DNA from: a virus
IMG/VR virus record: IMGVR_UViG_3300033148_004210
Span: 1-64,000 of that record
Reading direction: 5' to 3' (one strand)
Length of the DNA: 64,000 bases
In this document: in pieces, positions 2,630 to 60,320 of the stretch
Position numbering within the stretch: position 1 is the stretch's first letter
Layout: every line of letters begins with the position of its first letter
The notes under the pieces: generated by a model
The model's database searches: none
What the model was told of the DNA's origin: nothing
The model's input: the letters and a program-made list of their open reading frames with translations, nothing else
Program-made: the position numbers and the translations under genes

Positions 2630-3589
2630 ATGACTCCTGATAAAAACATAGTATTAGAAGTTTCTAAGTTAGTAGGTGAGCCTATTAATAAGCAACTTCC
2701 AGTTCCAGTTGAAATTTCAGCTATCGCCGATACTTTTACAGCCGAACCAGGCGAAAAAGTTTGGAGATATACTACTTTTGATACTTCTCTAGATACAGTT
2801 TTAGCGGTTGATGCTAATGGTGTTATTACAGTTGTAAAGAGAACTCCCACAGGGGATGCAGAGCTTACGTTTGATGGATTAAATTCTAAGTTAGAGTATG
2901 TGTTGATAAATGATATTCTTTCTGAAACTGACAATACTTCGGTATTGGCAAGACGAAAAGAATCGATTACTCGTTCAATGGATAAGAAAGAGCTTTATGC
3001 TATCGTTACTGCTATTCTTAGCAAAACTGGAAGTTATCTTCCTGGCGTAGACCCTGAAGAGGTTACGATGACAGGTAATGACCTTTATGATGTTATTATA
3101 GCGTTGAAGCATAAGGTTGAAGATTATGGAGATGGTTTCGTGCTACTTTGCGGTAGTGCAGTAAAAGAAGCTATTGACACTTATGATAAGGATAAAGCTA
3201 GCACGTTTAATTATAGTGTTACTTTAAGTCAGAAACTTAAAGAACTTGGTATAGAGGTATTGAAGGTATTTGGTAGTGTTGAACTTACTGACGGTGGTGG
3301 AGAGACTCGAATTATGAACACCAATAAAATGGTGCTTATAGCGAAGAATTCCAGAATCGCTGAAGGTAAGCCGATTAAGTTTGTTCGAAGAAAGATTTCT
3401 GCTGAAATAGCGAAGTTGATGGGTGCAGATGTTGACAGTGCTCAAAGGGCACTTATTGTCAACCCGACTCCAGTTAATTCTGGTTCGGCTAACCTGCTTG
3501 CCTATGGGATATATGGCTACGAAAGTATGATTTTCACAATCACAAATCCGTTAGCTATTGCGTTTGCGGACTGTTCATCGATACTATAA
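2630..3589 (+). CDS. Major capsid protein (HK97-fold candidate)
   Basis: A 319-residue protein directly after the protease/scaffold gene and followed at once by a strong hairpin, the usual arrangement for the most highly expressed virion protein. The N-terminal part is beta-rich and carries VWRYTTFDTSLDTV. A helical centre (about 105-190) resembles the spine and A-domain of HK97-type shells, and the C-terminal part ends in a beta-rich segment. GAGGTAAATTAAA precedes the ATG. A small 6-bp hairpin (2530-2545) lies in the 101-base leader. Codon choice is somewhat more GC-rich than in neighbouring genes, which fits high expression. Assignment rests mainly on synteny and size. Confidence 0.75.
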   Translation: MTPDKNIVLEVSKLVGEPINKQLPVPVEISAIADTFTAEPGEKVWRYTTFDTSLDTVLAVDANGVITVVKRTPTGDAELTFDGLNSKLEYVLINDILSETDNTSVLARRKESITRSMDKKELYAIVTAILSKTGSYLPGVDPEEVTMTGNDLYDVIIALKHKVEDYGDGFVLLCGSAVKEAIDTYDKDKASTFNYSVTLSQKLKELGIEVLKVFGSVELTDGGGETRIMNTNKMVLIAKNSRIAEGKPIKFVRRKISAEIAKLMGADVDSAQRALIVNPTPVNSGSANLLAYGIYGYESMIFTITNPLAIAFADCSSIL

Positions 3590-3644: not shown

Positions 3645-4430
3645 ATGGTAAATATGAAAAAAAGAAAAATAACAAAAAAATATTTAGTAGAGCAATATAT
3701 AAAGAATAAAAAGAATTCTATTCAAATTGCTAAAAGTATAAAATGTTGCGATACTACAATAAGAAATTATCTTAAAAAATATAATATAAAAATAAGAACT
3801 TTATCAGAAGTTCATAGAGGATTAAAACATACATTTAAAACTCGACAAGAAATGAGTATTTCTCATAAGGGATTAAAACATACTGAAGCAACAAAAATCA
3901 AATTAAGTTTATTTCATAAAATATATGACAAAATTTTAACAAAACAATTTTTAATAAAAGAATATATAAAAAATAATAAATCTACTTTAAAAATAGCAAA
4001 GAAAATCGATTGTTCAGTAACAACAATTTGGAAATTTTTAAAGAAATATAATATTCCTGTAAGAAATTTTAGAGAAAGTAGTTGTTGGAAAGGGAAAAAG
4101 AATCCAGAACAGAGTAAAAGAATGAAAGGTAAGAAACATCCCAATTATATAGAAGGATTAGACAGAAAATATCCCTTAGAATTTGATAATCAATTAAAAC
4201 AACAAATTCGTAAACGAGACGATTATACTTGTCAAAACTGTAATATGACAGAAGAAGAACATATTATAGTTCATGGAAGAGTTTTAGATGTCCATCACAT
4301 TGATTATGATAAAGATAATTTAGCCCCAGAAAATTTAATAAGTTTATGTCAAAGTTGTAATATTAGAGCAAATTATAATAGAAAGTATTGGATAGAATAT
4401 TTTCAAACAAAAACAAAGGAAAAGGTATGA
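3645..4430 (+). CDS. HNH homing endonuclease with two HTH modules
   Basis: Free-standing homing endonuclease of 261 residues. Two copies of an HTH module occur (about residues 5-45 and 95-140), each with the pattern L(T/I)KQ(F/Y)L, IA(K), C, TTI and KKYNI. The C-terminal nuclease carries RDDYTCQNC, LDVHHIDYD, ENLISLCQSC and NRKYW, the HNH fold with zinc-binding cysteines. It probably cuts DNA at an intergenic site in related phages lacking it and spreads by repair. It sits between the capsid hairpin and the next gene, with which it shares an ATGA stop-start overlap. No intron or intein around it is evident. Confidence 0.9.
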   Translation: MVNMKKRKITKKYLVEQYIKNKKNSIQIAKSIKCCDTTIRNYLKKYNIKIRTLSEVHRGLKHTFKTRQEMSISHKGLKHTEATKIKLSLFHKIYDKILTKQFLIKEYIKNNKSTLKIAKKIDCSVTTIWKFLKKYNIPVRNFRESSCWKGKKNPEQSKRMKGKKHPNYIEGLDRKYPLEFDNQLKQQIRKRDDYTCQNCNMTEEEHIIVHGRVLDVHHIDYDKDNLAPENLISLCQSCNIRANYNRKYWIEYFQTKTKEKV

Positions 4431-4897: not shown

Positions 4898-5072
4898 TAG
4901 ACCCTGGTTTTTAAATAAAAAATGTGAATTATGTGGAAAACAGGGAACAACTTTTAGACTTATAAAAAATAGGCATTATGTCCTTTGCGATAAAAAAATA
5001 TGTGATTATAAAACAAGAATAAGGGCAGGGTTTTTTAGTGAATTAAATTTTAAGGAGAAAATAAAATGTTAA
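4887..5072 (+). CDS. Small zinc-finger protein
   Basis: A 61-residue basic protein with CELCGKQG and a second pair in CDKKIC, enough for one zinc-binding site. Its start overlaps the end of the preceding gene by 11 bases and its end overlaps the next gene by 7, so it is translationally coupled inside the head operon. No function is recognisable; one of several tiny zinc-ribbon proteins in this genome. Confidence 0.65.
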   Translation: MKNNRPWFLNKKCELCGKQGTTFRLIKNRHYVLCDKKICDYKTRIRAGFFSELNFKEKIKC

Positions 5073-5647
5073 GCACAATAGGCACTTTAAGAACAAAAAC
5101 CAGAGCACTTGTAAGTGATATTATCAAATCTGACAAAGAAACATTTACTTATTCTAATTCGGCTATTTTTATTCTTGCCGAAGAAAATATAGAAAGTATA
5201 ACTCAAATAACTAAAAACGGGACAGCTCTCGGAACTGGCGAATTTTCTTTCGATTCTACTCTTAACGAAGTAACAGTTAGTCCAGATACAGGAAATGAAT
5301 TGACAAATGGAGATGTAATAATTGTTACATATACTTTTTATAAATATAGCACAACAGAATTAGACGAATACATAAGAGCTAGTTTAGTTTGGATGAGTGT
5401 TTTTGATGCAAGCGAAAATGATTTTGAAATAGAGAATGGAGACATTTACCCAACCCCAGATAATAGGACAATGGATTTAATAGTTTTAATTGCTTCCATT
5501 TTAATAAAACCGAATCATAGTGAATATCGTCTTCCAAATCTTACTGTGAAATATCCGCGTAAATGGAGCAAAGAAGAGAAGATAGAAAAATTAATTAATA
5601 GGTTTACTTTTGGACTTGGAATCTCGGACATAATTTCTTGGGACTAG
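5066..5647 (+). CDS. Putative head-tail connector protein
   Basis: The 193-residue protein has an N-terminal helix, a beta-rich segment of fibre or adaptor type (ITQITKNGTALGTGEFSFD, VIIVTYTFYKY) and a helical C-terminal half. Its place a few genes after the capsid gene suits a head-completion or adaptor protein. AAGGAG precedes the ATG and the start overlaps the zinc-finger gene. The beta-rich part resembles the C-terminal modules of the proteins at 6026-6373 and 7342-8121, suggesting a shared structural fold. The exact role is inferred. Confidence 0.5.
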   Translation: MLSTIGTLRTKTRALVSDIIKSDKETFTYSNSAIFILAEENIESITQITKNGTALGTGEFSFDSTLNEVTVSPDTGNELTNGDVIIVTYTFYKYSTTELDEYIRASLVWMSVFDASENDFEIENGDIYPTPDNRTMDLIVLIASILIKPNHSEYRLPNLTVKYPRKWSKEEKIEKLINRFTFGLGISDIISWD

Positions 5648-5666
5648 AAATAAAGGAGTCAAAGAT

Positions 5667-6011
5667 ATGATACATAAAGAAATAGAAATTGTAAGAAAGA
5701 CCACTAAGATTTTTGAATTACATTTTACCAAAAGTGGTCAGAATGAAGACATTACAGGTTGGTCAGTATATTTTACTGCTAAATCCAATATGAACGATAT
5801 TGATGCCGATGCTAAAATTTCAAAAACTGTTACTTCTCATAGTGACCCTGTAGATGGTAAAACTTTAATAACATTAGAACCTGCCGATACAAATATTGAT
5901 GCAGGGAATTATTATTTCAGTATAGATTTTAAAGATTCTGATGACCAAATAGGAATTTTATTTCATGGAAAATTAAAGATAGTAGAGCCTGTAAGAAAAG
6001 ACAGAACTTAG
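5667..6011 (+). CDS. Structural protein, BppU N-terminal-like beta-sandwich
   Basis: A 114-residue protein with the pattern of baseplate upper-protein N-terminal domains: FELHFTKSGQNEDITGW, VYFTAKS, a DPVDGKTLITLEPADT turn, then IDAGNYYFSIDFKD and a final strand (FHGKLKIVEP). That domain is a small immunoglobulin-like sandwich used to attach fibres or decorate virions. AAAGGAG lies upstream. It is coupled with the next short beta protein, so the two may form one virion accessory. Confidence 0.6.
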   Translation: MIHKEIEIVRKTTKIFELHFTKSGQNEDITGWSVYFTAKSNMNDIDADAKISKTVTSHSDPVDGKTLITLEPADTNIDAGNYYFSIDFKDSDDQIGILFHGKLKIVEPVRKDRT

Positions 6012-6025
6012 TAGGAATTTAAAAA

Positions 6026-6373
6026 ATGCCAATAGACACTGAATTAAAAGTCGATTTAATTGAAAAAGAATTAGTAGACATAGAACTAATCGATAAAGAA
6101 TTGGTAGATATAGATTTAGTTGTAATTGATGTTTTACAATATCATGAAAAAGAAATTATTTCTAATTTTAAACAAGAAGTCCCTACTCATGTAAGTGGTT
6201 ATCAATTTAGGACTTCATTAGAATATGTATCGACTACTCTCAAAGTCTATGTAAACGGAATAAAAGAAAAAATAAATCAAATACAAATAGACTCTTTAAC
6301 CACTTTTACATTTTTAGACCCCATAGATATTAATCTAGATTATATAGAAGTAAGTTATGTAGAAGTTACTTAA
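6026..6373 (+). CDS. Small structural protein with acidic N-terminal repeat
   Basis: The 115-residue protein begins with a repeating IEKELVDIELIDKELVDI segment (about residues 11-36), probably an extended coil. It ends in a beta module (TLKVYVNGIKEKI, FTFLDPIDINLDYIEVSYVEV) of the type found in phage fibre and decoration proteins. It follows the BppU-like gene by 14 bases. A virion role is inferred from module and position; no family is named with certainty. Confidence 0.5.
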   Translation: MPIDTELKVDLIEKELVDIELIDKELVDIDLVVIDVLQYHEKEIISNFKQEVPTHVSGYQFRTSLEYVSTTLKVYVNGIKEKINQIQIDSLTTFTFLDPIDINLDYIEVSYVEVT

Positions 6374-6387
6374 ATAAAGGATAAACA

Positions 6388-6654
6388 ATGCAAATAGCTA
6401 AAGAAATATTTTTAAAAAGTCTTAATATTATGAAGAAAACACTGGACTTAGGTGAAGTTTTATTCGATATGAGAACTAAACAATTTAAATATTTTCGTGC
6501 ACAAGTTATGGAAATAACATATACAGATTTAAAAAAATTATTTAAATATTTCTCTGATGAAAAAATTCTCAAAAAATGTCCTGAAAAATGTAATTTAAGG
6601 AAGGGCTATTCTAAATGTTTATGTGGGGGGTCAGGATTTATTAATGCCAAGTAA
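6388..6654 (+). CDS. Hypothetical protein with C-terminal Cys cluster
   Basis: An 88-residue protein, helical at first, ending in CPEKC, CLCGGSGF and a few residues. The last part resembles half of a DnaJ-type CxxCxGxG zinc knuckle. AAAGGATAAACA precedes its ATG. Its end overlaps the following endonuclease by 11 bases, so that endonuclease probably inserted at its stop codon. Function unknown. Confidence 0.6.
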   Translation: MQIAKEIFLKSLNIMKKTLDLGEVLFDMRTKQFKYFRAQVMEITYTDLKKLFKYFSDEKILKKCPEKCNLRKGYSKCLCGGSGFINAK

Positions 6655-7210
6655 AGGATATAAACAAACAAAAGAACAAAAAGAAAATATTAGTAAAGCT
6701 ACTAAGAAAGCTATGGCTAGACCTGAAGTTAAAGAAAAAATGATAAAAGCTAATAAAAGAAGAAGAAAATATAATCCCTGGAATAAAGGATTAACTAAAG
6801 AGATAGATTTAAGATTGAGAAAAAGAAGTAATGATTTAAAAGGACATGATTTCAAAAATCATAAACTTAATTGTCAATGTCCGATTTGTAAACAGACAAG
6901 AGGAGAATGGATTTCTAAATTTGGCAAAGAAGCCCCAAATTGGCAAAATGGTAAATCCTTCGAACCTTATCCTTTAGGTTGGAACAAAACTTTTAAAGAA
7001 CAAATAAGATTTAGAGATGGATATAAATGCCAAATTTGTGGATGTCCAGAAGTTGAAAATAATAGAAAATTAGCAGTGCATCATATTGATTACGATAAAG
7101 AAAATTTAGCCCCTGAAAATTTGATAAGTTTATGCAATGGTTGTCATAGTAAAACTAATGGAAATCGAAAATATTGGACAGAATTTTTAAGAGATATAAT
7201 TAAAGTTTAA
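6644..7210 (+). CDS. HNH homing endonuclease
   Basis: I use the ATG at 6644 (MPSKGY); a GTG at 6623 lies deeper inside the previous gene. The 188-residue protein starts with a NUMOD3-like basic DNA-binding segment (TKEQKENISKATKKAM). A CQCPICK zinc pair follows, then the HNH domain: RFRDGYKCQICGCPEV, LAVHHIDYD, ENLISLCNGCH and NRKYW. It lacks the HTH module present in most of the other endonucleases here. Probably a free-standing intergenic homing nuclease. Confidence 0.88.
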   Translation: MPSKGYKQTKEQKENISKATKKAMARPEVKEKMIKANKRRRKYNPWNKGLTKEIDLRLRKRSNDLKGHDFKNHKLNCQCPICKQTRGEWISKFGKEAPNWQNGKSFEPYPLGWNKTFKEQIRFRDGYKCQICGCPEVENNRKLAVHHIDYDKENLAPENLISLCNGCHSKTNGNRKYWTEFLRDIIKV

Positions 7211-7230
7211 TAATTTAAAATGAAAACTGA

Positions 7231-7246
7231 GTAATTTGTGTGTTTT
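7231..7246 (+). repeat. Left arm of a 16-bp inverted repeat flanking a fibre gene
   Basis: GTAATTTGTGTGTTTT here is the exact reverse complement of 8154-8169. The pair brackets the fibre-like gene 7342-8121 and could mark a cassette boundary or site-specific inversion arms. The left arm also forms part of the leader helix. Confidence 0.7.
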
Positions 7247-7323
7247 CGCAAGGTAAAATGCGGAAAATAGCTCGAAAGAGCCTGAAAAATGAATATGACC
7301 CTTGATAATTGAAAATAAATTAC
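7231..7323 (+). promoter_or_regulatory. Structured 5' leader of the fibre gene
   Basis: The 131-base gap before the next gene can fold as follows. A closing helix GTAATTT (7231-7237) pairs with AAATTAC (7317-7323), ending one base before the AGGAGG. TTTTCGCA (7243-7250) pairs with TGCGGAAAA (7259-7267, one bulge). GCTC/GAGC (7270-7281) closes a GAAA tetraloop. CAAGG (7249-7253) could alternatively pair with CCTTG (7300-7304). This looks like a leader controlling translation of the downstream gene. I do not match it to a known riboswitch class. Confidence 0.45.
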
Positions 7324-7341
7324 AAGGAGGAAATAAAATTT

Positions 7342-8121
7342 ATGGCAAATCGTAATACAAGAATAAGAGGAATACAAATTTTAGATAAAGGTGTAGATAC
7401 TGCTCAAATAGCTGATAGTGCTGTTGAAGCTTTACAGATTAATGCTGATGCGGTTACTACTGTTAAAATTTTAGATAATAATGTTACTTTAGCTAAAATA
7501 GCAGATGGAACGGATGCTCAAATGATAATTTGTGATGCTAGCGGTTATCCTACCTATGCGGTAGTAACTGGTGGAGATGTTCATATTGATAATGCTGGTT
7601 TAGCTACTATCCAAGCTACTAAAGTTACTGATGCCATGCTTAATGATGATGTGGCTACTGGTTTAGCTGGTGTCGGTCTTTCTGATACTAGTGGTGTTAT
7701 GGCACTCGATGTTAATGAAGTTGGAGAAGTTGTGGTAGATGTTGCTAATGATTCGTTTTGTTTAACTGACAATTCCGATTCAGATGCTACTAAAAGGGAT
7801 ACCATTGCTGATTTAGTTACTGCTATAGCTGGAGCTGGATTAACAGCTACTGCTGGTGTTTTAGCAGTTGATGAACATGCTTCTGGTATAATTACTGAAG
7901 ATGATATAGTTAGAAATGAAGTTGTTGAACCCGATACTGCTTCAGATACTGATTATACTTTAGCTAATAGTCCTGTTGTTGGCACTGTGAATATCTATTT
8001 AAATGGACTTTTACAGCAACCAGGCACGGGAGAAGATTATGTTATTGATGGAGCAAGTGTAGTTTTTGCAACTGCGGTTGATGCTTCAGACCTCGTTTTA
8101 GCTGACTACATTGTGACTTAG
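7342..8121 (+). CDS. Fibre/decoration protein sharing N-terminal motif with the large fibre
   Basis: The ATG at 7342 follows AGGAGG (7325-7330); an earlier TTG at 7309 lies before the ribosome site. The 259-residue product begins MANRNTRIR, nearly the start of the large fibre at 9446 (MADRNTSIR), so both may dock at the same virion site. A middle region is rich in Ala, Val, Asp and Thr repeats (DAVTTVKILDNNVTLAKIAD), typical of phage fibre stalks. The C-terminal module (VNIYLNGLLQQPGTGEDYVI) is a beta head found in phage structural proteins. Ala/Gly/Asp codons make it more GC-rich than its neighbours. Confidence 0.65.
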   Translation: MANRNTRIRGIQILDKGVDTAQIADSAVEALQINADAVTTVKILDNNVTLAKIADGTDAQMIICDASGYPTYAVVTGGDVHIDNAGLATIQATKVTDAMLNDDVATGLAGVGLSDTSGVMALDVNEVGEVVVDVANDSFCLTDNSDSDATKRDTIADLVTAIAGAGLTATAGVLAVDEHASGIITEDDIVRNEVVEPDTASDTDYTLANSPVVGTVNIYLNGLLQQPGTGEDYVIDGASVVFATAVDASDLVLADYIVT

Positions 8122-8124
8122 AAA

Positions 8125-8146
8125 TAATTTAGAGTAATCTAAATTA
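8125..8146 (+). terminator. GNRA-capped hairpin after the fibre gene
   Basis: TAATTTAGA (8125-8133) pairs perfectly with TCTAAATTA (8138-8146) around a GTAA loop (GUAA in RNA, a GNRA tetraloop). It starts 3 bases past the stop codon. An A7 run follows, so on the plus strand it is more a 3' mRNA hairpin than a classical terminator. Confidence 0.55.
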
Positions 8147-8153
8147 GCCTAAA

Positions 8154-8169
8154 AAAACACACAAATTAC
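8154..8169 (+). repeat. Right arm of the 16-bp inverted repeat
   Basis: AAAACACACAAATTAC, exact reverse complement of 7231-7246. It lies between the fibre gene's hairpin and the start of the next homing endonuclease. Confidence 0.7.
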
Positions 8170-8187
8170 AATTTTATAAGAAAAAAT

Positions 8188-8838
8188 ATGATACATACTA
8201 AATTATCGAAAGTTTTAACAAAACAATTATTACTAAAAGAATATACAAAAAATCTAAAATCTGCAAACCAAATTGCTAAAAAACTTAGATGTTCCAGTGG
8301 AACTATTTATATTTATTTGAAGAAATATAACATAAAAACAAGAACTTATATTGAAGCTTTAAGTGGAAAAAAAGCTGGCAGGTTTAAAGATGGTAGAACA
8401 ATGAAAAAATATTATTGTAAAGATTGTGGTATAAAAATCACTTATCAATCTGGTTATTATGGTCAAGGAAAATGTAATCATTGTAATCAAATAAGTAAAC
8501 CTTTACCTTCTAAGGAAGCGATTCGAAACCAAAGTCTGGCTCATGGAGGAACTGGAATTCCTTACGAAAACGATGAATATGGTGCAGAATTTGATAATGC
8601 TTTAAAAGAACAAGTTAGATTTCGAGATAAGTATAAATGCCAAGTTTGCGGATGTCCTCAAATAGAAAATGGAAGACAATTAGACGTTCATCATATTGAT
8701 TATAATAAGAGGAATAATATTTTAAATAATTTAGTATCCTTATGTCGCAAATGCCATATGAAAACAAATTACAATAGAGAAGAATGGGAAGAATATTTCC
8801 AAGCAAAATTAAGGAGAATTCATGAAACCCAAAGGTAA
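8188..8838 (+). CDS. HNH homing endonuclease with HTH and zinc ribbon
   Basis: The 216-residue protein has an N-terminal HTH module (LTKQLLLKEY, IAKKLRCSSGTIYIYLKKYNI). A zinc ribbon follows (CKDCG...CNHC, about residues 75-95), then the HNH nuclease: EYGAEFDNALKEQVRFRDKY, CQVCGCPQ, LDVHHIDYN, LVSLCRKCH. The nuclease half is very close to that of the gene at 15284, indicating recent spread within this genome. The start ATG has only a weak ribosome site. Its end overlaps the next gene by 17 bases. Confidence 0.9.
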   Translation: MIHTKLSKVLTKQLLLKEYTKNLKSANQIAKKLRCSSGTIYIYLKKYNIKTRTYIEALSGKKAGRFKDGRTMKKYYCKDCGIKITYQSGYYGQGKCNHCNQISKPLPSKEAIRNQSLAHGGTGIPYENDEYGAEFDNALKEQVRFRDKYKCQVCGCPQIENGRQLDVHHIDYNKRNNILNNLVSLCRKCHMKTNYNREEWEEYFQAKLRRIHETQR

Positions 8839-9112
8839 AAATTATTCTCGAATGAACAAAAAACAACAAGTAAAAGTTGATAAAACTATAAAACGTATGG
8901 AAAAAACAAGAATTAAAGATGATGTTAGGCTTCGTAAATCTATAAAAGCCAAACTTGAATGGGCTAAAGAACAGAAAAAGAAAGGTTTGGAAGCTGTTGA
9001 GGATTTTAAAAAAAGAATTCAGACAAATACGAAAGAATTACTTAAACTTGAAGGTATAATATTAGTATTAAGTCAAATATTACAGGAAGAACAACCAAAG
9101 AAAGAAAAATAA
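8822..9112 (+). CDS. Small lysine-rich coiled-coil protein
   Basis: A 96-residue, very basic protein predicted to be nearly all helix (KQQVKVDKTIKRMEKTRI ... LKLEGIILVLSQIL). AAGGAG precedes the ATG by 5 bases, inside the tail of the endonuclease gene. It abuts the next small gene with no gap. No family recognised; its place between fibre genes suggests a virion or assembly role. Confidence 0.6.
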   Translation: MKPKGKNYSRMNKKQQVKVDKTIKRMEKTRIKDDVRLRKSIKAKLEWAKEQKKKGLEAVEDFKKRIQTNTKELLKLEGIILVLSQILQEEQPKKEK

Positions 9113-9292
9113 ATGCTTACAGCCCAATTAGATTTTAAATGTAATATATGCGGATGTGAAAAATTTTTTGTAATGCCTGTTGGAAAATTAACCAAAAGTG
9201 GTGATACAGTAACTACTCTTTCGGAATATTTGCTGAAATGTAAAAAATGTTTAAAGGCATATATTTTAGATTTTTCAATAAAGGCGTGTTAA
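9113..9292 (+). CDS. Small zinc-ribbon protein (59 aa)
   Basis: An ATG directly after the previous stop codon opens a 59-residue frame with CNICGC near the start and CKKC near the end, spaced as a four-Cys zinc ribbon. It ends at TAA 9290-9292. The next small gene starts 14 bases later. Function unknown. Confidence 0.6.
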   Translation: MLTAQLDFKCNICGCEKFFVMPVGKLTKSGDTVTTLSEYLLKCKKCLKAYILDFSIKAC

Positions 9293-9306
9293 AAAAGGAA
9301 TAAAAG

Positions 9307-9456
9307 ATGATAAGACGTATTAGAAACTTAAAAGAAATAGAAAAGGGAAAGCAAGAAAAGAAACATCAATCTCTTTTGGAAGATTTAATTATCCTTTTAA
9401 TTAAAAAAGGTATTATTTCAAAAGAAGATTATGAGGAATTAACAAATGGCAGATAG
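9307..9456 (+). CDS. Small basic protein (49 aa)
   Basis: An ATG after AAAAAGGAATAAAAG opens 49 codons (MIRRIRNLKEIEKGKQEKK...), ending in an amphipathic helix with acidic residues. The stop at 9454-9456 overlaps the start of the large fibre gene (ATG 9446) by 11 bases, so translation of the fibre is probably coupled to it. No homologue recognised. Confidence 0.5.
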   Translation: MIRRIRNLKEIEKGKQEKKHQSLLEDLIILLIKKGIISKEDYEELTNGR

Positions 9457-12400
9457 GAATACATCGATAAGAAGAAGCCAATTAAAACCTATTATTTGGG
9501 ATGATTTAGATGCTACCAATTCTCCTAGTGATAATTATGTCCCTTCTTATGACGATGCTACAAAAAAATTTACTTGGATTGCAGTTGTAGGAAGCCATGA
9601 TAGACAACACAGTATAGTAGCATCTGCCGACCATTCTGATAAAGCTGATTATATAGACATACCTTATTCTCCTACTATTTTAACTGGTGGAGTTCTTTCT
9701 GAAGGAACAAATCCAGGAACTTTAAAAATAAGTGCTTTAACTGCTTTACTTAGAACAACAGATTCTACTACTGGAGCATTAGCAAAAATAACTTTGACTG
9801 AACAAGATAATCAATCTATAGGTTCTGCTAATACAATATATAAAGTAGTATTAGATTATAATGACGGAAGTCCTCAAATACTTATACAAATAGCTGGTGC
9901 AGACCATAAAAGACAAATAAATATTGGGACTTGTATGAAAGAATTAGATAATACTATTCATATTACTAATGCAGGGTTTAGATTAGCCGAAAGTGCTAAA
10001 AAATCTCATCGTAGAGCTGGTAAACTTAGAAAATGGGAATTGTCTAATGAAATAACAATAACAGATGAAGGCAGTAAACAATTTTCAATATCTTCAGGAG
10101 AACTTTTTAAAGGAATTAATAATTTTATTTGGGCTGGATTTGATTCTTCTGCAACTGGAGAAACTTTTACTTATGTATATTTTGATGGAGATGTTACTGC
10201 TGGAGGAGCTTGGGTATATGTTCCTGACCAAACAGACATAGATGTAGATAATTATAACGATATAGCAATTGGATTAGATTCTTTTACTAAATATAAATGT
10301 GATTGGGTTTTCATTCATCCTGATGATGGACATGTTTATGTAGTTTATGGTCAACAGGACGGAACAATAGGGCAAATATCTGATTCAAGTGTTCCTACGC
10401 TTCCTGATTTAATAGATACTTTTGGAGCATTAGTAGGAAGAATTATAGTAGATGCTGGTGTAGCTACATTTCATAGAATAGAAGTGGTTCAAAATGTAAC
10501 TTTTAGTCCTCAAGTGGTTATAGACCATAATGATAATTCAAATATACAAGGTGGAACTACAGACCAATATTACCATTTAACTTCTGCCGATTATACAGAA
10601 CTTACTCAATGGTTAGATAATGTTACTTTGGGTAGTGATGGCAAATTGACTTTGGTAAGTGGAACAGCTATTAACGAATTTTCTACAGATGGAACTTTAT
10701 CGGACAATTCTGATGATGCAGTGCCAACAGAAAAAGCAGTAAAAACTTATGTTGATAATGCAGTTCCTAATTTGTCTACCAGTGTAGACGATTTTACAAT
10801 TAAATATGAAAACGATAAATTAAAAATCGCAGACCGTATTGAACAAAATATAGCGTTATTAGCTTTTTATAGAGCAATAGACCAATCAGAATCTATTTAT
10901 AATTTAGTGGATGGATTTATAGACGAATTTGAAGACGAAACAGGAGTAGATACTGGAAATTCTACAAATGAAGATTATGATAGTGATAACGATTTATATA
11001 GTCCTTTAACTTTAGCAAATTTAGAATTAGATTATATGGAATATTCTAGTGATGAATTGGTTAGGGCTGATTGGGTATCTTCTGACCCCACATCAGGGAG
11101 TGGCGGTATAGATGCAAATACAAAATTACTTATTCATGGCAATGATGGAGATGCCAGTGGACAAAATCATATACCTACTTATGTAGGAACAGCTAAAATA
11201 GATGCTACTACTTATAAATGGGAAAAAGGTAGTTTATCAGTAGATGGAGATTCCGATTGTCTTACTTTTTCAGACAGTGGTGATTGGGATGTGATAGGTT
11301 CAAATTCAGATAATTGGACTATAGATTTTTGGGTAAAACATACTGACCATGCTGGAAGCGAATATTATATGGCTCATCATGAAGATGGTAGTAATCGATG
11401 GTTTTTCAAACATGGAGATGGCACGGGTTTACTTTTTTATGTTCAAGGCGTTGCGAATTTCAACACAGGTTCTGGTGGAGAAATAACAGATACGGATTGG
11501 CATCATGTTGCAGTTTGTAAAATAGCAGATAAATATGCTTGTTATTTAGATGGAACTCAAGTAAATTATGTTCAAAATAGTGATGTTGATACTTTTGCAG
11601 GAAGTTTATATATAGCACAATCTGGGAGTGGTGATAGTTGGTTTGCTGGTAATATGGACAGTATTAGAATAAATCATAGTAATGTTTTAAATGCAGTAAT
11701 AGATGCTGATGGAAGTTCAGGAACTTGCGACCTTCCTACTTCAGCTTCAACAGCAGATGCAAATACTAAACTTTTACTTAATTTCGAAGACGGAGACCAA
11801 TATGGAGGACATAATGTAGAACCTCAAGGAACAGCTCAAATAGATAGAACTACTAAAAAATGGGGCAATGGTTCTTGGAAATTTGATGGAAACAGTGATT
11901 ATTTAGAATTACCAGATAGTGCAGATTGGGATATAGGTGCTTCAAATTCAGATGATTGGACTATAGATTTATGGGTAAAATGTAGAGTAGCTGATATTTC
12001 TGATGAAGCCCAAGTTATAATGAGCCAAAGAAACGGTGCTGATTATTGGCTTTTTTATAGACATCCTGCCGAAAGTCTTTACTTTTCTACTTCTTGGGGA
12101 GTATCTTCAATAAGTGCGACAGGTCTTCTTGCAGATACTGATTGGCATCATATTGCTTTAATAAAAGTAGCAGATAAATATGCTATCTATTTAGATGGAA
12201 CTCAAATATCTTATACTCAAAATGCTTCAGTTGGCAATATTACTGCTAGTCTATTAATAGGAAAACAAACTGCTGGACAATGGTGGGATGGTCACATGGA
12301 TGAAGTAAGAATACAACATAGTAATATATTTAATGCTTCTCCAAACGATACTCCAAATGATACCATAACAATTCCTACAGGAGAATATGATGTATTAGTA

Positions 12401-14818: not shown

Positions 14819-15284
14819 AACGAGTAGAGCTATCGAAGCCTCATTAATAGATTTTCTTAAACCACTATTAGAGGCGAATTGGGGTAATATTTCAGTAGAA
14901 AAAACTTTTGCAAAAATTTATGATATTTCCTTGCCTAGCGTATGTATAAGAGTAGGAGATACCTCCCATGCAAAGGCAGAAATCGGCGATGATAGCACTA
15001 TTAGAACAGTCCAAGTTTTTATCGATATTTTTGCTTCGAGTGATGGACAGAGATTAGATATAAAAGATTTTATAGTAGAAAATATAAAAAATGGTGGAAT
15101 TTTTTATGATTATGTTATTTCTGGAGGTTCTGTTCAAAGCAAAACTGCCAATGGTCGTTTGAGAGTTACTAGTATAGAAGACAGTGGTATTAATTTTGAT
15201 ACTGATAAAGAAAAACTTGATAAACATGATAGATATAGGTCACTCATTACTTTAAGTATTAGCTTAGGGAGAATAGAAAGCTAA
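14805..15284 (+). CDS. Putative tail terminator (tail completion) protein
   Basis: The 159-residue alpha/beta protein has the features of tail terminators: an N-terminal helix (AIEASLIDFLKPLLEANW), a strand with SLPSVCIRVGD, VQVFIDIFASSDGQRLDIKD, and a final strand (RYRSLITLSISL). AAAGGAG stands 8 bases before the ATG. It follows the gp10-like gene once the endonuclease is discounted and precedes the tail tube, exactly as in lambda-like gene order. Expected role: cap the tube and join it to the head. Confidence 0.65.
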   Translation: MGQYRTSRAIEASLIDFLKPLLEANWGNISVEKTFAKIYDISLPSVCIRVGDTSHAKAEIGDDSTIRTVQVFIDIFASSDGQRLDIKDFIVENIKNGGIFYDYVISGGSVQSKTANGRLRVTSIEDSGINFDTDKEKLDKHDRYRSLITLSISLGRIES

Positions 15285-15904
15285 TGTATCCTAAAAAATA
15301 TTATTTAACCAATAAATGTATTGATTGTGGCAAATTAATCCATAGACAAGCTATAAGATGTAGAGATTGTCAAGACCGCCACCGTGCTTTATTAATAAAA
15401 GGAGATAAAAACCCAAATTTTAGGCACGGAGAAACATTAAAAAAACATTATTGTTCCGATTGTGGAAAAGAAATAAGTGACTATAGACGTAAAAGATGTC
15501 AGTCTTGTGCAAATAAATTAATAAATTTAGGAAGAAAACATACTATAAAAGCAAAACAAAACATGAGCAAAGCATTAAAAGGGAAACCGAAATCTAAAAA
15601 ACATATAAAAAATTTGAGTTTAGCTCATGGTGGCACAGGTATCCCTTATGAAAATACTGAATATGGTGCAGAATTTGATAACGAACTAAAAGAGCAAGTT
15701 AGATTTAGAGATAAATATAAATGTCAAATATGTGGCTGTTCCCAATTAGAAAATGGTAAACAGTTAGATTGCCATCATATTGACTATAATAAAAAGCATA
15801 ATATTTTAAATAATTTAGTGGCTTTATGTATAGGTTGCCATAGAAAAACGAATTTTAATAGAAAGTATTGGAAAAATCTTTTCCTTAGTAGAGTGGAGGT
15901 ATAA
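15284..15904 (+). CDS. HNH homing endonuclease with two zinc ribbons
   Basis: The 206-residue protein starts with two zinc ribbons (CIDCG/CRDC and CSDCG/CQSC) and a NUMOD-like basic stretch (KHTIKAKQNMSKALKGK). The HNH nuclease follows: EYGAEFDNELKEQVRFRDKY, CQICGCSQ, LDCHHIDYN, LVALCIGCH, NRKYW. The nuclease half is almost the same as in the gene at 8188. It starts at a TAATG overlap with the tail terminator. Confidence 0.9.
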   Translation: MYPKKYYLTNKCIDCGKLIHRQAIRCRDCQDRHRALLIKGDKNPNFRHGETLKKHYCSDCGKEISDYRRKRCQSCANKLINLGRKHTIKAKQNMSKALKGKPKSKKHIKNLSLAHGGTGIPYENTEYGAEFDNELKEQVRFRDKYKCQICGCSQLENGKQLDCHHIDYNKKHNILNNLVALCIGCHRKTNFNRKYWKNLFLSRVEV

Positions 15905-21868: not shown

Positions 21869-21886
21869 TTTTATAGGAGGAAATAA

Positions 21887-22522
21887 ATGACAAATCTAAC
21901 TTTACGGGTAAACAAAGGAGATGCTGATACTGCTTATGGAGAGACAGGAGCAGATTATATTAATGCAGACCTTACAAATGATTATATTATTTGGACTGCT
22001 GGAAGTTCTGCGGTAGCGGATGGGCAAGATGAACCTACTGAAGACGAATTAAATCAAGCTTATTCTATAATTACCGATAGCGACCTTACAGTTGCACATT
22101 GTTTATTTTTCGATTATAGTGGAGATGTGTTAGAAGATGTAGAAGGTATGGGATTAAATAAACGATACGTATTTTGTTTTTCTTTTGATGGAGCAACTGC
22201 AAGTGAACCACAATTGGAAGCTTGGGACGATTCTGACCATGATTCCATTGATAAACATGTTCTTGGTGTAGAAACTGGTGAAGATTCTTTTGTAAAGGGA
22301 GTTTGCACTACTTTAGGATTACCTGGAGCAGATTGGGTTGGAGACCCTATTGCAGGAACTGATGTATTGTTATTAAATAATACTAATGGTGCTTTAAGTG
22401 CTTTAGCTACTGGAGAAACAAGTCAAGAATTATATGCTAATTTAAAAATTGTTATTCCTGCAAACTATAGCACTCCTGCAATTGAAACTTTTGTATTAAC
22501 AGTGCGATATACTTGGATGTAA
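21887..22522 (+). CDS. Tail structural protein, unknown family
   Basis: The 211-residue acidic protein follows the distal tail gene with a strong ATAGGAGG. It is beta-rich (LTLRVNKGDADTAYGETGAD, NLKIVIPANYSTPAIETFVL ending RYTW), without helices or signals, as expected of a virion component. No family recognised. Codon choice resembles the capsid and tube genes. Confidence 0.55.
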   Translation: MTNLTLRVNKGDADTAYGETGADYINADLTNDYIIWTAGSSAVADGQDEPTEDELNQAYSIITDSDLTVAHCLFFDYSGDVLEDVEGMGLNKRYVFCFSFDGATASEPQLEAWDDSDHDSIDKHVLGVETGEDSFVKGVCTTLGLPGADWVGDPIAGTDVLLLNNTNGALSALATGETSQELYANLKIVIPANYSTPAIETFVLTVRYTWM

Positions 22523-22916: not shown

Positions 22917-23657
22917 ATGAAAGAATATCTTAAAAAACATTATTGTATAGAATCTAATTGCAACAACAAAATTTGTTATTCTACTTTTCTTTATGGGAGT
23001 AAAAAATGTAGAAGTTGCTCAAATAAAGGAAGAATTGTTACAGAAGAAACTAAGAAAAAAATAATTAAAATACATACGGGTTTGAAGCGTTCCAAAAAAA
23101 CTTGTAAAAATATTAGCGACTCTTTAAAAGGAAAATACAAATATAATATTTCTAAAGAATTTTTGATTAAAGAATATATAAAGAAGAATAAATCAATGAA
23201 AATAATAGCAAAAGAGATAGAATGTAGTGAAGCCACTATTTGTTATAGAATGAAAAAATACAATATTCTGCGGAGAAATAGGTATGAAGCAATGAAAGGA
23301 GTCCCTAAATCAAATAAAGGTAAAAAACATCATTGGTATGGGAAAATTATTCATGGCAAATGGGGGAAATATAAAGGGATTTATATGCGGTCTTCTTGGG
23401 AAATATTATATGCTAAATATCTTGATAAACAACATATTAATTGGCAATATGAACCTATAGCATTTGAATTGGATAATACTACTTATACACCAGATTTTTA
23501 TTTACCAGAAAAGAATAAATATATAGAAATAAAAGGTTATTGGAGAGACGATTCCAAAAAGAAATTTAATAAATTTAAGGAAAAATATCCAGATAAAGAT
23601 ATTACAGTATTAATGAAAACAGACTTAGAAGAATTGGGAATTTTAGAAAAAAAATAA
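22917..23657 (+). CDS. PD-(D/E)XK homing endonuclease with HTH module
   Basis: The 246-residue protein starts directly after the previous stop codon. It has a Cys-rich ribbon (CIESNCNNKIC, CRSC), a NUMOD-like stretch (TEETKKKIIKIHTG) and the shared HTH module (ISKEFLIKEY, IAKEIECSEATICYRMKKY). The C-terminal nuclease reads MRSSWEILYAKYLD, then YTPDFYLP and YIEIKGYW, that is the PD...(D/E)XK catalytic motif. This is the third nuclease fold in the genome to carry the same HTH module. Confidence 0.85.
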   Translation: MKEYLKKHYCIESNCNNKICYSTFLYGSKKCRSCSNKGRIVTEETKKKIIKIHTGLKRSKKTCKNISDSLKGKYKYNISKEFLIKEYIKKNKSMKIIAKEIECSEATICYRMKKYNILRRNRYEAMKGVPKSNKGKKHHWYGKIIHGKWGKYKGIYMRSSWEILYAKYLDKQHINWQYEPIAFELDNTTYTPDFYLPEKNKYIEIKGYWRDDSKKKFNKFKEKYPDKDITVLMKTDLEELGILEKK

Positions 23658-29408: not shown

Positions 29409-29678
29409 TTAAAATATTAATAACATCGCAAAAAGAGTTAAAGTAGAATAAGGTATTATTTCACTCCAAGTCAGACTTTTTCCGAAAATTGTAACACTTC
29501 CTAATGTTCTCCAACTTAATAAAGCGAAAACCGAAGTTGTAATTATACTTCCTATAATATATACAATCCAATTTGATTTTATTATAGGTATAGTTAAAAA
29601 AGTCAAACAAGACATTAATCCTATTGTTCCTCTTGTCATACAGTTTGTTAATAATAAAATTTGTTCTTTTTTATTCAT
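29409..29678 (-). CDS. Small membrane protein (three hydrophobic segments)
   Basis: I take the ATG at 29678 (MNKKEQILL), which overlaps the end of the upstream endonuclease; a TTG at 29705 is also in frame. The 89-residue product has three hydrophobic stretches (about 15-31, 37-55, 70-88). With the amidase two genes away, holin is one possibility. Nothing in the sequence is specific. Confidence 0.55.
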   Translation of the reverse strand: MNKKEQILLLTNCMTRGTIGLMSCLTFLTIPIIKSNWIVYIIGSIITTSVFALLSWRTLGSVTIFGKSLTWSEIIPYSTLTLFAMLLIF

Positions 29679-30435
29679 AATTAAATACCAATATTTTAGA
29701 TTCAAGTTTCTCTAAATTTCCTAATTCTTTTTCCCATACTATTAAGGTTCTATATCCACATTTTTTGTAAGTTTTAATACGACGTTTATCTCTTTCCTTT
29801 ACATCTTTTCTATTATGCCAGTAATCGCCATATAATTCTATAATCTTTTTCTTATTTTTATGTATAAAATCAGGACAAAATCCTCCTATTATTAACTTTC
29901 CATCTCCTACGAATTTATATGTATTAGAAAATATTTTATTTAATAATTCGATTAATTTTAATTCTTTTTTATTAGGTGTTAATTTCAAAGCTTTCCAAGT
30001 GGCTTTGATAGTTTTTTCTCTAAATTTTAAATCCTTCCATTTCCTCTTACTTATTTCGGAAAATTTCTTTTTTTGTTTTTTAGAAAATTTTTTACCATAC
30101 ATCCCATTGTTTTTTCCTTTGGATTTTTCAGGATTAGTAATAATATCATATTTTCTTGCACAAGACCGACATCTTCCTCCTCCATAAACCCCAGAAAAAA
30201 CAGAAATTTCTTTACCACAATCTTTGCAAAAATACTGCTCAGAATATCTACCATCTATATATCTTCCATTATTTTTTCCTGAATTACTATTAGGACGAAT
30301 TTTTAATTTAAATTTTCTTAAATAATTTCCAACTGTCATTTGTGAACAGTCCATTGTTTTGACTGTTTGTGTTTGAGATTTTTTATTTTTATCGTATTCT
30401 CTTATTAAAAATTTTTTAGTTATTATTTTTTTCAT
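29671..30435 (-). CDS. Vsr-like (EDxHD type) homing endonuclease with HTH module
   Basis: The 254-residue protein starts with the HTH module (ITKKFLIREY, TMDCSQMTVGNYLRKFKL), then a zinc ribbon (CKDCG...CRSC) and a NUMOD-like stretch (GKKFSKKQKKKFSEISKRK). The C-terminal nuclease reads LIELLNKIF, GGFCPDFI, IIELYGDYWH, RRIKTYKKCGYRTLIVWEKE. It is a close relative of the gene at 14021 but on the other strand. It is inserted between two small membrane-protein genes, overlapping both. Confidence 0.87.
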   Translation of the reverse strand: MKKIITKKFLIREYDKNKKSQTQTVKTMDCSQMTVGNYLRKFKLKIRPNSNSGKNNGRYIDGRYSEQYFCKDCGKEISVFSGVYGGGRCRSCARKYDIITNPEKSKGKNNGMYGKKFSKKQKKKFSEISKRKWKDLKFREKTIKATWKALKLTPNKKELKLIELLNKIFSNTYKFVGDGKLIIGGFCPDFIHKNKKKIIELYGDYWHNRKDVKERDKRRIKTYKKCGYRTLIVWEKELGNLEKLESKILVFNYE

Positions 30436-33196: not shown

Positions 33197-33511
33197 TTAT
33201 TCGTTATATTTTTTAGCTAAATCAGGATACCAAAAACTTGAAACAGTATTTGACCCTTCTATTTTATCATCAATTTCATTTGTTCTTAATTGGGTTCTTA
33301 CCATTTCTATAGGAATTCGTTTAGTTGTTTCTATTATCGCAAACCCTCCATTATGTTCGAACCCTAAAGAATGTAACATTTTTAAAACTTTATTAAAATG
33401 CTTACTATCTTCTTTAGAATATATTCGAGTTTCAAGACAAGTATATAATCGAGGAACTACAGAATTATTATAAGAACATCTGGTTATAATTTGACCATAA
33501 TGCCATTTCAT
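33197..33511 (-). CDS. Hypothetical protein, copy 1 of a duplicated gene
   Basis: The 104-residue protein (MKWHYGQIITRCSYNNSVV ... SSFWYPDLAKKYNE) is almost identical to the product of 60295-60630, differing mainly after DLAK. It interrupts the three sugar-nucleotide genes and overlaps the dehydratase stop by 4 bases. No family is recognised; VEMVRTQLRTNEIDDK-like helical and beta segments suggest a small folded domain. Its presence in two unrelated operons suggests recent mobility. Confidence 0.7.
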   Translation of the reverse strand: MKWHYGQIITRCSYNNSVVPRLYTCLETRIYSKEDSKHFNKVLKMLHSLGFEHNGGFAIIETTKRIPIEMVRTQLRTNEIDDKIEGSNTVSSFWYPDLAKKYNE

Positions 33512-38796: not shown

Positions 38797-39368
38797 TTTA
38801 CATCCTTATATAAAGGCATAATAGATTGGTAACTTATTAAAGTATAATGTTTATAAGGTATTTTATTTGTCCTACCTTTTTTTCCATGTTGAGGTATTCT
38901 CCAATCATTGCCATATAAATAATTTAAATATTTTTCTGGATTATGAGGAACTTTAAATTTCCTTTCTAAGAAAATAAGAGTGTCTAATGAACTTATAAAT
39001 TCTTCTGGAAACTTACTTATCATATCTTTTAAATAAATGTTATAATATTTTCCTTCTTTTTTATAATGATAAACATCAAGAGGCACTTTATTAGCATTTA
39101 AAAAACATGTCGAAGCAAAATCATTCCAATTTATATGTGGATAAATATTAACTTTCTTTAAATCTGCAAGTATATTATGCCACAATTTACCATCTTTAAA
39201 ATACTTATATTTGACTCCTATATCAATATCAGCATCTCCTTTAATAAAATTATTATCTCGGATTGCTCCTAAAAGAGTCCCAGAAGATAAGAAAAATTCT
39301 ATATTATATTTTTCTAATACATCTGCCATTTTAAAAAGATAGTTTTTTAACCCTAAATTTTTACTCAT
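38793..39368 (-). CDS. LicD-family phospho(no)transferase, copy 2
   Basis: The 191-residue protein is a diverged paralogue of the preceding gene, with YNIEFFLSSGTLLGAIRDNN, FIKGDADIDIGVKY and YLNYLYGNDWRIPQHGKKG. Two adjacent LicD genes suggest two acceptor positions or two different sugars to decorate. It overlaps the fused endonuclease/decarboxylase gene by 8 bases. Confidence 0.75.
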   Translation of the reverse strand: MSKNLGLKNYLFKMADVLEKYNIEFFLSSGTLLGAIRDNNFIKGDADIDIGVKYKYFKDGKLWHNILADLKKVNIYPHINWNDFASTCFLNANKVPLDVYHYKKEGKYYNIYLKDMISKFPEEFISSLDTLIFLERKFKVPHNPEKYLNYLYGNDWRIPQHGKKGRTNKIPYKHYTLISYQSIMPLYKDVK

Positions 39369-40581
39369 TTATAGCCCTCATAAATCTTTCTTTAATTTGT
39401 TTTCCAGTTAAAGGAATTCTTGGAGCATTTCCTTTGCCTTTTTCTATTTTAATAACTATAGTATTAGGAGCTAACGATTTAAAATCACAATAATTAGAAG
39501 CTGTTTGTTGTCCTCCTGTTGAAGCATGGGTGTTGTTATCCAAAATATAATGATGTAAATTTTTAGGATTTAATTTTTTATGTGTTATTAAACTATTTAA
39601 TCCCATAAGGGTTTCTCCATCTCCTGTTATAACAACTATTTTCTTTTTGGTATTTTTTGCAATACCGATACCTATAGAAAGACAACTGCCCATTCCTCCT
39701 AAAAGATATAAATTTTTATCACTATCTAATATTTTATAAATCGTCCTTGAAGTCATGCCTAATGAAGATATTAACAAAGTATCTTTTTTTAATGTATATA
39801 AAATTAATTTAATCGCTTCCTCTCTTGTGGGATTTTTATTGTTTACTAGATACTTAAAATATTTTTTCCAAAATTTTCTGTTTATATTTGTTTTGCCATG
39901 ACATGATAAACAAAGACTTATAAGGTTATTAAAATTTAAATTATTTTTATTGTAATCTATATGATGGATACATAAAGATTTTTTTATTTCGGATTGTTTT
40001 ATACTACATAATTGGCAACTATATTTATCTCTTTTTCTAATTTCTTTTTTTAATCTTTCTGTAAATTCTATAGGATAAGGTTCAAAAGAAGAACCATTAT
40101 TCCAATGAGGACTATTTTCTCCTTTCTTTGCACATGCCCCACATCTTCCTAAACCAAAACAAGCGGAATCATAACAAATTTTATTTCCACATTCTATACA
40201 ATAATAAATTTGTTTGGTTTTTCCATCTTTATAATTATGATTTAATTTATCTTTTTTAGATTCGCTCAAACTTCTAATAGGAATTTCATGTATTTTTAAA
40301 TATTTAAAAACAGTAGTTATTGAACAATTCTTTTCCATTGCTATTTTAGAAGGAATTTTTGAATTTTTGATATATTGTTCATAAAGAAATTCTTTAGTTA
40401 AAATTTTATCCCACTTTTTTTGATGGAGGTTTCGTCTCGGAATATTATATTTTTTCATCCAATATAATATCACTTTATGAGAACAATCTAATTCAGATGC
40501 AATCCTATGTAATGATATTTTATTTTTTATATATTTCTTGATAAGCAATTTTCTTGTTATGTTGTATTTTTTCTTAGCCAT
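39361..40581 (-). CDS. HNH homing endonuclease fused to phosphonopyruvate decarboxylase C-terminal half
   Basis: In this 406-residue protein, residues 1-245 are a homing endonuclease: two HTH modules (ITRKLLIKKY and LTKEFLYEQY, each ending with K(Y/I)xIP), a ribbon (CIECG...CGAC), then HNH (RDKYSCQLC, LCIHHIDYN, LISLCLSCH). From about residue 247 (NPTREEAIKLIL) it is the TPP-binding half of phosphonopyruvate decarboxylase: SSLGMTSRTIYKI, GGMGSCLSIGIGIAK, VVITGDGETLMGLNSL, HYILDNNTHASTGGQQT. GDG and NN of the TPP motif are kept. The N-terminal half is the next gene (40574-40939). The nuclease apparently invaded the decarboxylase gene at the domain boundary and left the C-half in frame. Confidence 0.85.
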   Translation of the reverse strand: MAKKKYNITRKLLIKKYIKNKISLHRIASELDCSHKVILYWMKKYNIPRRNLHQKKWDKILTKEFLYEQYIKNSKIPSKIAMEKNCSITTVFKYLKIHEIPIRSLSESKKDKLNHNYKDGKTKQIYYCIECGNKICYDSACFGLGRCGACAKKGENSPHWNNGSSFEPYPIEFTERLKKEIRKRDKYSCQLCSIKQSEIKKSLCIHHIDYNKNNLNFNNLISLCLSCHGKTNINRKFWKKYFKYLVNNKNPTREEAIKLILYTLKKDTLLISSLGMTSRTIYKILDSDKNLYLLGGMGSCLSIGIGIAKNTKKKIVVITGDGETLMGLNSLITHKKLNPKNLHHYILDNNTHASTGGQQTASNYCDFKSLAPNTIVIKIEKGKGNAPRIPLTGKQIKERFMRAINE

Positions 40582-40939
40582 TTTGTTTTACATATTTTAT
40601 GTTTTTATAATTAAGTAAATTTAATAATTTAGGAGTTATTTTACTCATATGTCTATGATATTCAGGTTTTTTTCTTAGACTTATTAATAAATCTATTTCT
40701 ATGTCATAATATTGCATAATAGAAGTTAATAAAGTTAAACAAGAACCCAATCCACTATCTTGCATAAAAACTAAAGGATTTTTATCCATTAATTTTGCTC
40801 CTATCGCCATAGCCAAAGCTTCATCCTCTTTTGTGGCAATAATAACCTTATCATAATTTATTATTCCTTTAAATTTAGAACAAGGAACTCCCGTAATAAA
40901 ATCATGAGAATCGACCCATCGTTTTAATTTTCTATTCAT
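40574..40939 (-). CDS. Phosphonopyruvate decarboxylase N-terminal (Pyr) half
   Basis: The 121-residue protein matches the start of phosphonopyruvate/sulfopyruvate decarboxylases: FITGVPCSKFKGI, IIATKEDEALAMAIGAKLMD with the cofactor-activating Glu, LVFMQDSGLGSCLTLLTSIM and PEYHRHMSKITPKLLNLLNY. The full enzyme converts phosphonopyruvate to phosphonoacetaldehyde. Separate alpha and beta chains are normal in ComDE, so the pair could still be active. This half is shorter than usual alpha chains (about 165), so a terminal segment may be missing. It overlaps the endonuclease start by 8 bases. Confidence 0.8.
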   Translation of the reverse strand: MNRKLKRWVDSHDFITGVPCSKFKGIINYDKVIIATKEDEALAMAIGAKLMDKNPLVFMQDSGLGSCLTLLTSIMQYYDIEIDLLISLRKKPEYHRHMSKITPKLLNLLNYKNIKYVKQNG

Positions 40940-60160: not shown

Positions 60161-60320
60161 TTTCTTCCCATCTTTCTTCAGGAATGTCTCCTCGTTTTAA
60201 TCCTTCTTTAACTCTCTCTATATTTCCAGGTCTTCCCATAAGTTTGGCAATTCTTTCTAAAGTTTTGCCTTTTTGAAACTCGGCTATTATTTTTTTATCT
60301 GTTCCGTTTAAATGACCCAT
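60150..60320 (-). CDS. Small HTH-like protein (56 aa)
   Basis: The frame MGHLNGTDKKIIAEFQKGKT then LERIAKLMGRPGNIERVKEG has a helix-turn-helix look (IIAEFQKGKTLERIAKLMGR), as in resolvase-type HTH regions. It overlaps the gene on each side. It might regulate the recombination genes. Not confirmed by family recognition. Confidence 0.55.
   Translation of the reverse strand: MGHLNGTDKKIIAEFQKGKTLERIAKLMGRPGNIERVKEGLKRGDIPEERWEENEK

Follow-up and report, generated by a model that had tools for sequence, protein, structure and literature searches.

Conserved interactions between the 5′ and 3′ untranslated regions (UTRs) of one messenger RNA (mRNA) seem, to our knowledge, to be rare among described prokaryotic messengers. 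The Staphylococcus aureus icaR mRNA forms base pairs between its 3′ UTR and the Shine-Dalgarno region and is cut by RNase III (PMC3868564), the mRNAs of the hok and aapA toxins combine pairing of their 5′ and 3′ ends with anti-Shine-Dalgarno alternatives and local hairpins (PMC6733600), and helices in the phage T4 leaders of e, soc, 49 and I-TevI mask the ribosome-binding site (PMC3014915). These systems are the nearest working analogues of an element that we describe in 64,000 nucleotides (nt), hereafter the window, of the IMG/VR virus record IMGVR_UViG_3300033148_004210 (record length 101,595 bases). There, a fibre-like structural gene is enclosed by an inverted repeat that seems to be a conserved RNA helix formed over a long range (helix A) rather than a DNA inversion signal. 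The element differs from icaR in that its arms lie outside the translated unit, its Shine-Dalgarno helix is local and its pairing was traced by covariation across phages. The products of hok and aapA are type I toxins with an antisense RNA as the antitoxin, whereas the armed loci here encode fibre-like proteins of 153–341 amino acids (aa), 259 aa in the window and thus not a small toxin. The T4 helices are placed at the initiation region, and the available text of that review does not use the term "long-range". Pairing of the 5′ and 3′ UTRs of one mRNA, the arrangement of hok, aapA and icaR, is indicated here by covariation, a single transcript being assumed.

The original prediction started from a perfect 16 base pair (bp) inverted repeat around the gene at 7342–8121, which the sequence confirms; the arms are fully complementary and 907 nt apart. 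The leader behind the 5′ arm contains three local helices, P2, P3 and P4. A GAAA-capped hairpin had been noted there and is present as P3, and the proposed alternative pairing of CAAGG (7249–7253) with CCTTG (7300–7304) is possible. A helix said to end one base from AGGAGG also exists, as P4, but it actually overlaps the Shine-Dalgarno sequence AAGGAGG. The features of the element are as follows.

7231..7246, plus strand: 5′ arm of the long-range helix A, GTAATTTGTGTGTTTT, paired with probability 1.00 when the full length is folded
7244..7265, plus strand: P2 hairpin, stem TTTCGCA/TGCGGAA (7244–7250/7259–7265), loop AGGTAAAA (7251–7258); the outer U bases of the stem also belong to the arm of helix A
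7251..7254, plus strand: candidate pseudoknot strand AGGT in the P2 loop, possible partners GCCT at 8147–8150 or a leader strand at about 7298–7304
7270..7281, plus strand: P3 hairpin GCTC-GAAA-GAGC, from the sequence and from covariation in nine loci
7300..7327, plus strand: P4 helix, CCTTGATAATT (7300–7310) with AATTACAAGG (7318–7327), the 3′ side overlapping the start of the Shine-Dalgarno sequence
7324..7330, plus strand: Shine-Dalgarno sequence AAGGAGG, from the sequence
7342..8121, plus strand: fibre-like structural gene, 259 aa, within helix A; weak match to PHROG "tail fiber protein" (E 5.4e-5)
8147..8150, plus strand: candidate 3′ pseudoknot strand GCCT, in the 3′ UTR, 3 nt 5′ of the 3′ arm
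8154..8169, plus strand: 3′ arm of the long-range helix A, AAAACACACAAATTAC

Taken in isolation, the 16-bp repeat is only mildly unusual. Perfect pairs of at least 16 bp with arms at most 1000 nt apart occurred 0.18 times per dinucleotide-shuffled 64-kb window, and 10 of 60 shuffles held at least one. The repeat is far above chance because it recurs in relatives, which were gathered by fibre, capsid, portal and terminase searches and by one pattern scan. The phage group comprised 11 fibre loci: the window, L107 (also named L002), L111 (L094), L104, L105 (L099), L106, L140, L165 (L199), L191, L109 and L113. The pattern scan gave 79 loci, of which L085, L094 and L099 were judged by eye to belong to the group. 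A fibre search of the capsid, portal or terminase relatives L102, L103, L110/L131, L112, L132, L136, L142, L143, L144 and L156 gave no match, and these were left out. The short fragments L135, L137, L139, L149 and L157–L160 entered the gene-by-gene scan only, 17 other loci from the first fibre search (L003–L019) were scanned for the leader motif only, and a final viral scan for distant fibre homologues yielded at least 77 loci.

Complementary arms were found in 10 of the 11 fibre loci, one before the leader core and the other immediately 3′ of the fibre stop codon, with sequences that differ between loci. The contiguous helix measures 16 bp in the window, L111 and L109, 15 bp in L104 and L191, 13 bp in L107 and L140, 11 bp in L165 and 10 bp in L106; those of L111, L104, L106 and L191 each include one G-U pair, and that of L105 consists of 7 + 4 bp interrupted by a U-U mismatch. 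Allowing G-U pairs in the sense strand lengthened the arms in these same four of 10 loci, the equivalent antisense wobble in none, and the sense RNA is therefore most likely the paired molecule. Read by eye, the window and L191 differ by an extra A in the 5′ arm that is matched by an extra T in the 3′ arm, the two phages sharing 70–86% nucleotide identity over their matching pieces. The 5′ arm lies 89–96 nt from the ATG wherever the core leader RNA occurs (nine loci) and 48 nt in L109, while the 3′ arm precedes the next start codon by 7–37 nt in 10 loci.

Over nine loci, 89 of 90 pairs of helix A were kept, with double changes at 9 of 10 positions and none of 20,000 whole-strand permutations as good, in a table whose strands were aligned by hand and whose arms were partly picked by complementarity; the gene-by-gene scan and the swap test are for that reason the fairer tests. 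When 10 leaders were scored against 10 trailers (without L191), the own score exceeded all 90 swaps (maximum 13.0) in eight of ten cases, those of L105 and L113 not doing so. When every gene in seven sequences was scanned for complementarity of its own 5′ and 3′ flanks, the fibre gene came out on top in six (among 66 genes in the window), L105 failing because of its U-U mismatch. The at least 77 distant loci held 87 genes with the shared C-terminal motif, of which 10 scored 15 or more; seven of these belong to this phage group, and the other three (L243, L224 and L234) have a GC content of 0.41–0.61. Other genes in the same loci reached 15 in 17 of 490 cases, the 16 among the matches listed coming from loci with a GC content of 0.54–0.69.

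The core leader RNA (P2, P3 and P4) was recognised in nine of the 11 loci, with a variable P2 stem and a loop that is mostly GGGU plus A-rich. Over these nine loci, the inner pairs of P2 were all kept (45/45; double changes 5/5; permutations as good 2/20,000), as were 34 of 36 pairs of P3 (4/4; 0/20,000) and 42 of 45 of P4 (4/5; 1/20,000). On a MAFFT alignment of seven loci, P2 was 93.9% paired with six of seven pairs changed on both sides, a result equalled on every measure by none of 500 shuffles, and slid versions of the stem scored far lower. A covariance model built on seven leaders matched L191, which lay outside the training set, at 56.4 bits directly upstream of the fibre gene, and the arms of L191 were recovered independently of this model in a separate gene scan. 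Strong matches came from eight records, with a single strong copy in each. Thus eight loci were identified by the model (seven being its training set) and one more by hand. On 71 of the at least 77 distant loci, the model otherwise returned chance-level scores, L199 included. Since base pairs are kept while the sequences change, helix A, P2, P3 and P4 represent conserved pairing, and a conserved RNA structure is well supported by these comparisons. The original prediction had called for a check of the paired bases in relatives, and the outcome speaks for RNA structure.

Thermodynamic folding agrees with the long-range pairing: when nine loci (all but L191 and L113) were folded at full length, the arms paired with probabilities of 0.89–1.00. 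The fibre leader ranked first or second in stability among 7–53 genes in all seven sequences analysed, and in the window its folding z-score was −2.2, with 4 of 200 shuffles equally stable. Predicted access to the Shine-Dalgarno sequence was below the mean in all seven and the lowest of all genes in L105 only. Compared with folds of the leader plus 30 nt, full-length folding produced a clear drop in this access in L165 and L109 alone and a slighter one in L104 and L140.

We lean, by a modest degree, towards a conserved mRNA structure in which helix A acts as a fold-back switch on fibre translation, the structure coming from comparison and the function being one that we infer. The leader with P2, P3 and P4 would pair with the fibre 3′ UTR, placing the Shine-Dalgarno sequence, start codon and coding region within one large RNA loop, and the GGGU-like P2 loop may, more weakly, form a pseudoknot with an RCCY-like strand just 5′ of the 3′ arm. 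P4 would partly mask the Shine-Dalgarno sequence, the P2 loop may compete for the anti-Shine-Dalgarno strand, and the completed 3′ end could capture the P2 loop, so that the level of fibre translation might be set by the completion or the availability of the 3′ UTR. The switching step is the inferred part, because full-length folding clearly lowers access in two loci alone. Where the gene had been proposed to be controlled by RNA folding, the structural half of that claim is thus borne out by the covariation of P2, P3, P4 and the arms, and the control half is a prediction from sequence.

Several observations weigh against this switch. It assumes a single transcript across both arms. Access to the Shine-Dalgarno sequence is often not extreme (rank 6 of 53 in the window, 6 of 14 in L111 and 4 of 7 in L140), and in most loci its exposure is little altered by full-length folding in pseudoknot-free folds. 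The pseudoknot of the P2 loop with the 3′ UTR is weak, as its 36 of 36 kept cells vary little and 712 of 20,000 permutations did as well, and the competing leader site is not significant (34/36 kept; 5921/20,000). The leader of L165/L199 scored only 23 bits (E 0.28, or 0.37 in another search), which is chance level, and its assignment is a manual one based on position, arms and loop, the whole-record search having listed a different chance-level place. L109 keeps helix A and lacks P2 and P3, and L113 has no comparable helix, its best being 7–10 bp. A noisier nearest-neighbour duplex swap test of the 11 loci put the own partner first in eight rows, with L107, L104 and L191 not best. The selection of arms partly by complementarity in the covariation table counts here too, as do mismatched gene pairs that equalled or bettered the fibre score: 2 of 4290 in the window, 2 of 240 each in L107 and L104, 6 of 380 in L106, 0 of 210 in L109 and 1 of 210 in L111. 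Four of these 13 pairs are the arms of helix A viewed from adjacent genes and three match the end of a capsid gene to the leader of the following gene; the last six, one in the window and five in L106, are unexplained.

The main rival to translational fold-back control is transcript processing, which we consider possible though somewhat unlikely. In a long polycistronic transcript, helix A would then serve processing or stability, as a duplex that an RNase III-like enzyme cleaves or that shields the ends, and would delimit a separate fibre mRNA much as stems do around ribosomal RNA genes, with the leader hairpins guarding the 5′ end. The position of the arms just outside the translated unit, the short distance from the 3′ arm to the next start, the duplex energies of −10 to −21 kcal/mol and the helix retained alone in L109, which suggests that it may work without P2 and P3, all fit such a stem. 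On the other hand, helices of 10–16 bp are short relative to classical RNase III substrates, and the conserved helix over the Shine-Dalgarno sequence would be left unexplained. The conserved loop motif and the constant order of elements would also suit a split catalytic or ligand-sensing RNA, in which helix A, the long-range pseudoknot, P2 and P3 would fold together as a single domain that carries the gene in a loop; we regard this as improbable, given the lack of a credible Rfam match and the missing core in L109.

A cassette acting at the DNA level, in which recombination at the arms would invert or exchange the fibre gene, had been suggested originally and is a very improbable reading now. 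A fibre-like gene flanked by inverted repeats, HNH genes on either side in the window and the modular interior of the protein invite it. Yet the arms do not share a site sequence as in invertible tail-fibre cassettes but vary among phages while keeping their complementarity, they contain sense-strand G-U pairs, and all 11 loci show a single orientation, with the fibre gene on the strand of its neighbours. Pfam found no recombinase among the nine neighbouring proteins, to which that scan was confined. A chance repeat in AT-rich DNA, for which the shuffled windows with 16-bp pairs could be cited, is in our judgement next to negligible, set against recurrence at the homologous place in nearly all loci, the swap test and the discovery of L191 by the model.

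Rfam 15 yielded no match at gathering score in the window or L106, all matches being far below those scores, and in the window none to a group I or II intron core; a likeness between the P2 region and a strand of group I introns was considered and dropped. The skipping-rope RNA (RF02924), another candidate, shares with the element its occurrence on phage contigs and the order of outer stem, hairpin with a G-rich loop and second hairpin. Unlike the fibre element, it is a compact RNA of 80 positions with a third hairpin and no gene in its loop. It was rejected on model matches in both directions and on architecture. The RF02924 model (gathering score 36.7 bits) gave only a 17.1-bit match at 21870–21940 in the window and nothing at the leader, and matches below the cut-off also occur in 13 of 14 control genomes. 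Conversely, the leader model gave no match at six skipping-rope loci, whose members fit the RF02924 model end to end within 79–141 nt. The compact third hairpin and closing stem were not found here, where the closing strand lies at a distance of about 0.9 kb.

Two further features of the locus, a hairpin behind the fibre gene and a small upstream gene, are given below.

8126..8145, plus strand: perfect 8-bp hairpin 3′ of the stop codon, from the sequence; by eye, a similar hairpin is present in L111 only
6388..6654, plus strand: 88-aa gene upstream, of a family of about 90 aa with two long helices and a Cys-rich C-terminus ending in GSGY/F

The fibre-like protein had no Pfam match at E ≤ 0.01. 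A consensus scan of 5000–9500 found 27 promoter-like sites against 24.4 expected and two terminator-like sites against 1.4 expected, with three plus-strand promoter-like and no terminator-like sites between the arms. In all nine core-RNA loci, the first phage gene upstream is this one of about 90 aa, with an HNH-type gene intervening in the window and L106. Its AlphaFold model has a mean pLDDT (predicted local distance difference test) of 89, and searches returned no PDB match at E ≤ 0.001 and no useful Pfam match. Nine other related records did not yield the gene; the core RNA gave chance-level or no matches in seven of these searched over the whole record, and in two metagenome-assembled genome (MAG) records over the fetched loci only. 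Because a fibre gene was seen in just two of the nine, L109 (where neither the small gene nor the core RNA was found) and L113, the association of gene and core RNA is only suggestive, and the protein may possibly be a partner of the RNA element. A bolder reading, which we consider unlikely, is a new gene-enclosing RNA class, in which a pseudoknotted domain divided between the two UTRs would loop a virion mRNA and sense transcript completeness, with the Cys-rich upstream protein as a dedicated RNA-binding partner.

Pfam-confirmed HNH genes flank the element just outside its arms, at 6644–7210 and 8188–8838. L191 has neither of them, and they are therefore most simply seen as later arrivals outside the element; in L106, an HNH-type gene occupies the corresponding upstream site, with its frame extending into the leader. 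By eye, further HNH-like or homing-type genes are present at 3645–4430, 15284–15904, 22917–23657, 29671–30435 and 39361–40581. A phosphonate-type set on the minus strand (39361–44240) comprises, by Pfam, a phosphoenolpyruvate phosphomutase fused to a cytidylyltransferase-like domain, a class-V aminotransferase and a thiamine pyrophosphate enzyme C-terminal domain, the last behind what by eye seems a homing-type insertion. At 52451–55651 (minus strand), a DNA polymerase B frame runs into a Mom-family domain (residues 853–1058), an apparent polymerase-Mom fusion. Two near-identical gene copies, encoding 104 and 111 aa and with 27 kb between them, occur on the minus strand (33197–33511 and 60295–60630) and have no Pfam match. 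The distant relative L156 carries at 3255–3557 (minus strand) a 100-aa gene between the arms of a perfect 21-bp inverted repeat, possibly a second gene of like design; by eye, the right arm can also fold into a local hairpin. The contigs of the capsid relatives L112 and L113 were binned into Lokiarchaeota and Woesearchaeota MAGs, while the window phage encodes a RecA-family protein.

The element was not found described in the open-licence literature searched, and the comparisons suggest, in uncultured viruses of microbes, a control element made of RNA that surrounds an entire gene and has not been described before. Its pairing is backed by compensatory change, including the matched one-base insertion, and spans an entire structural gene. 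The element could serve as a natural test case for the existence and use of closed-loop mRNAs in prokaryotes or their phages.
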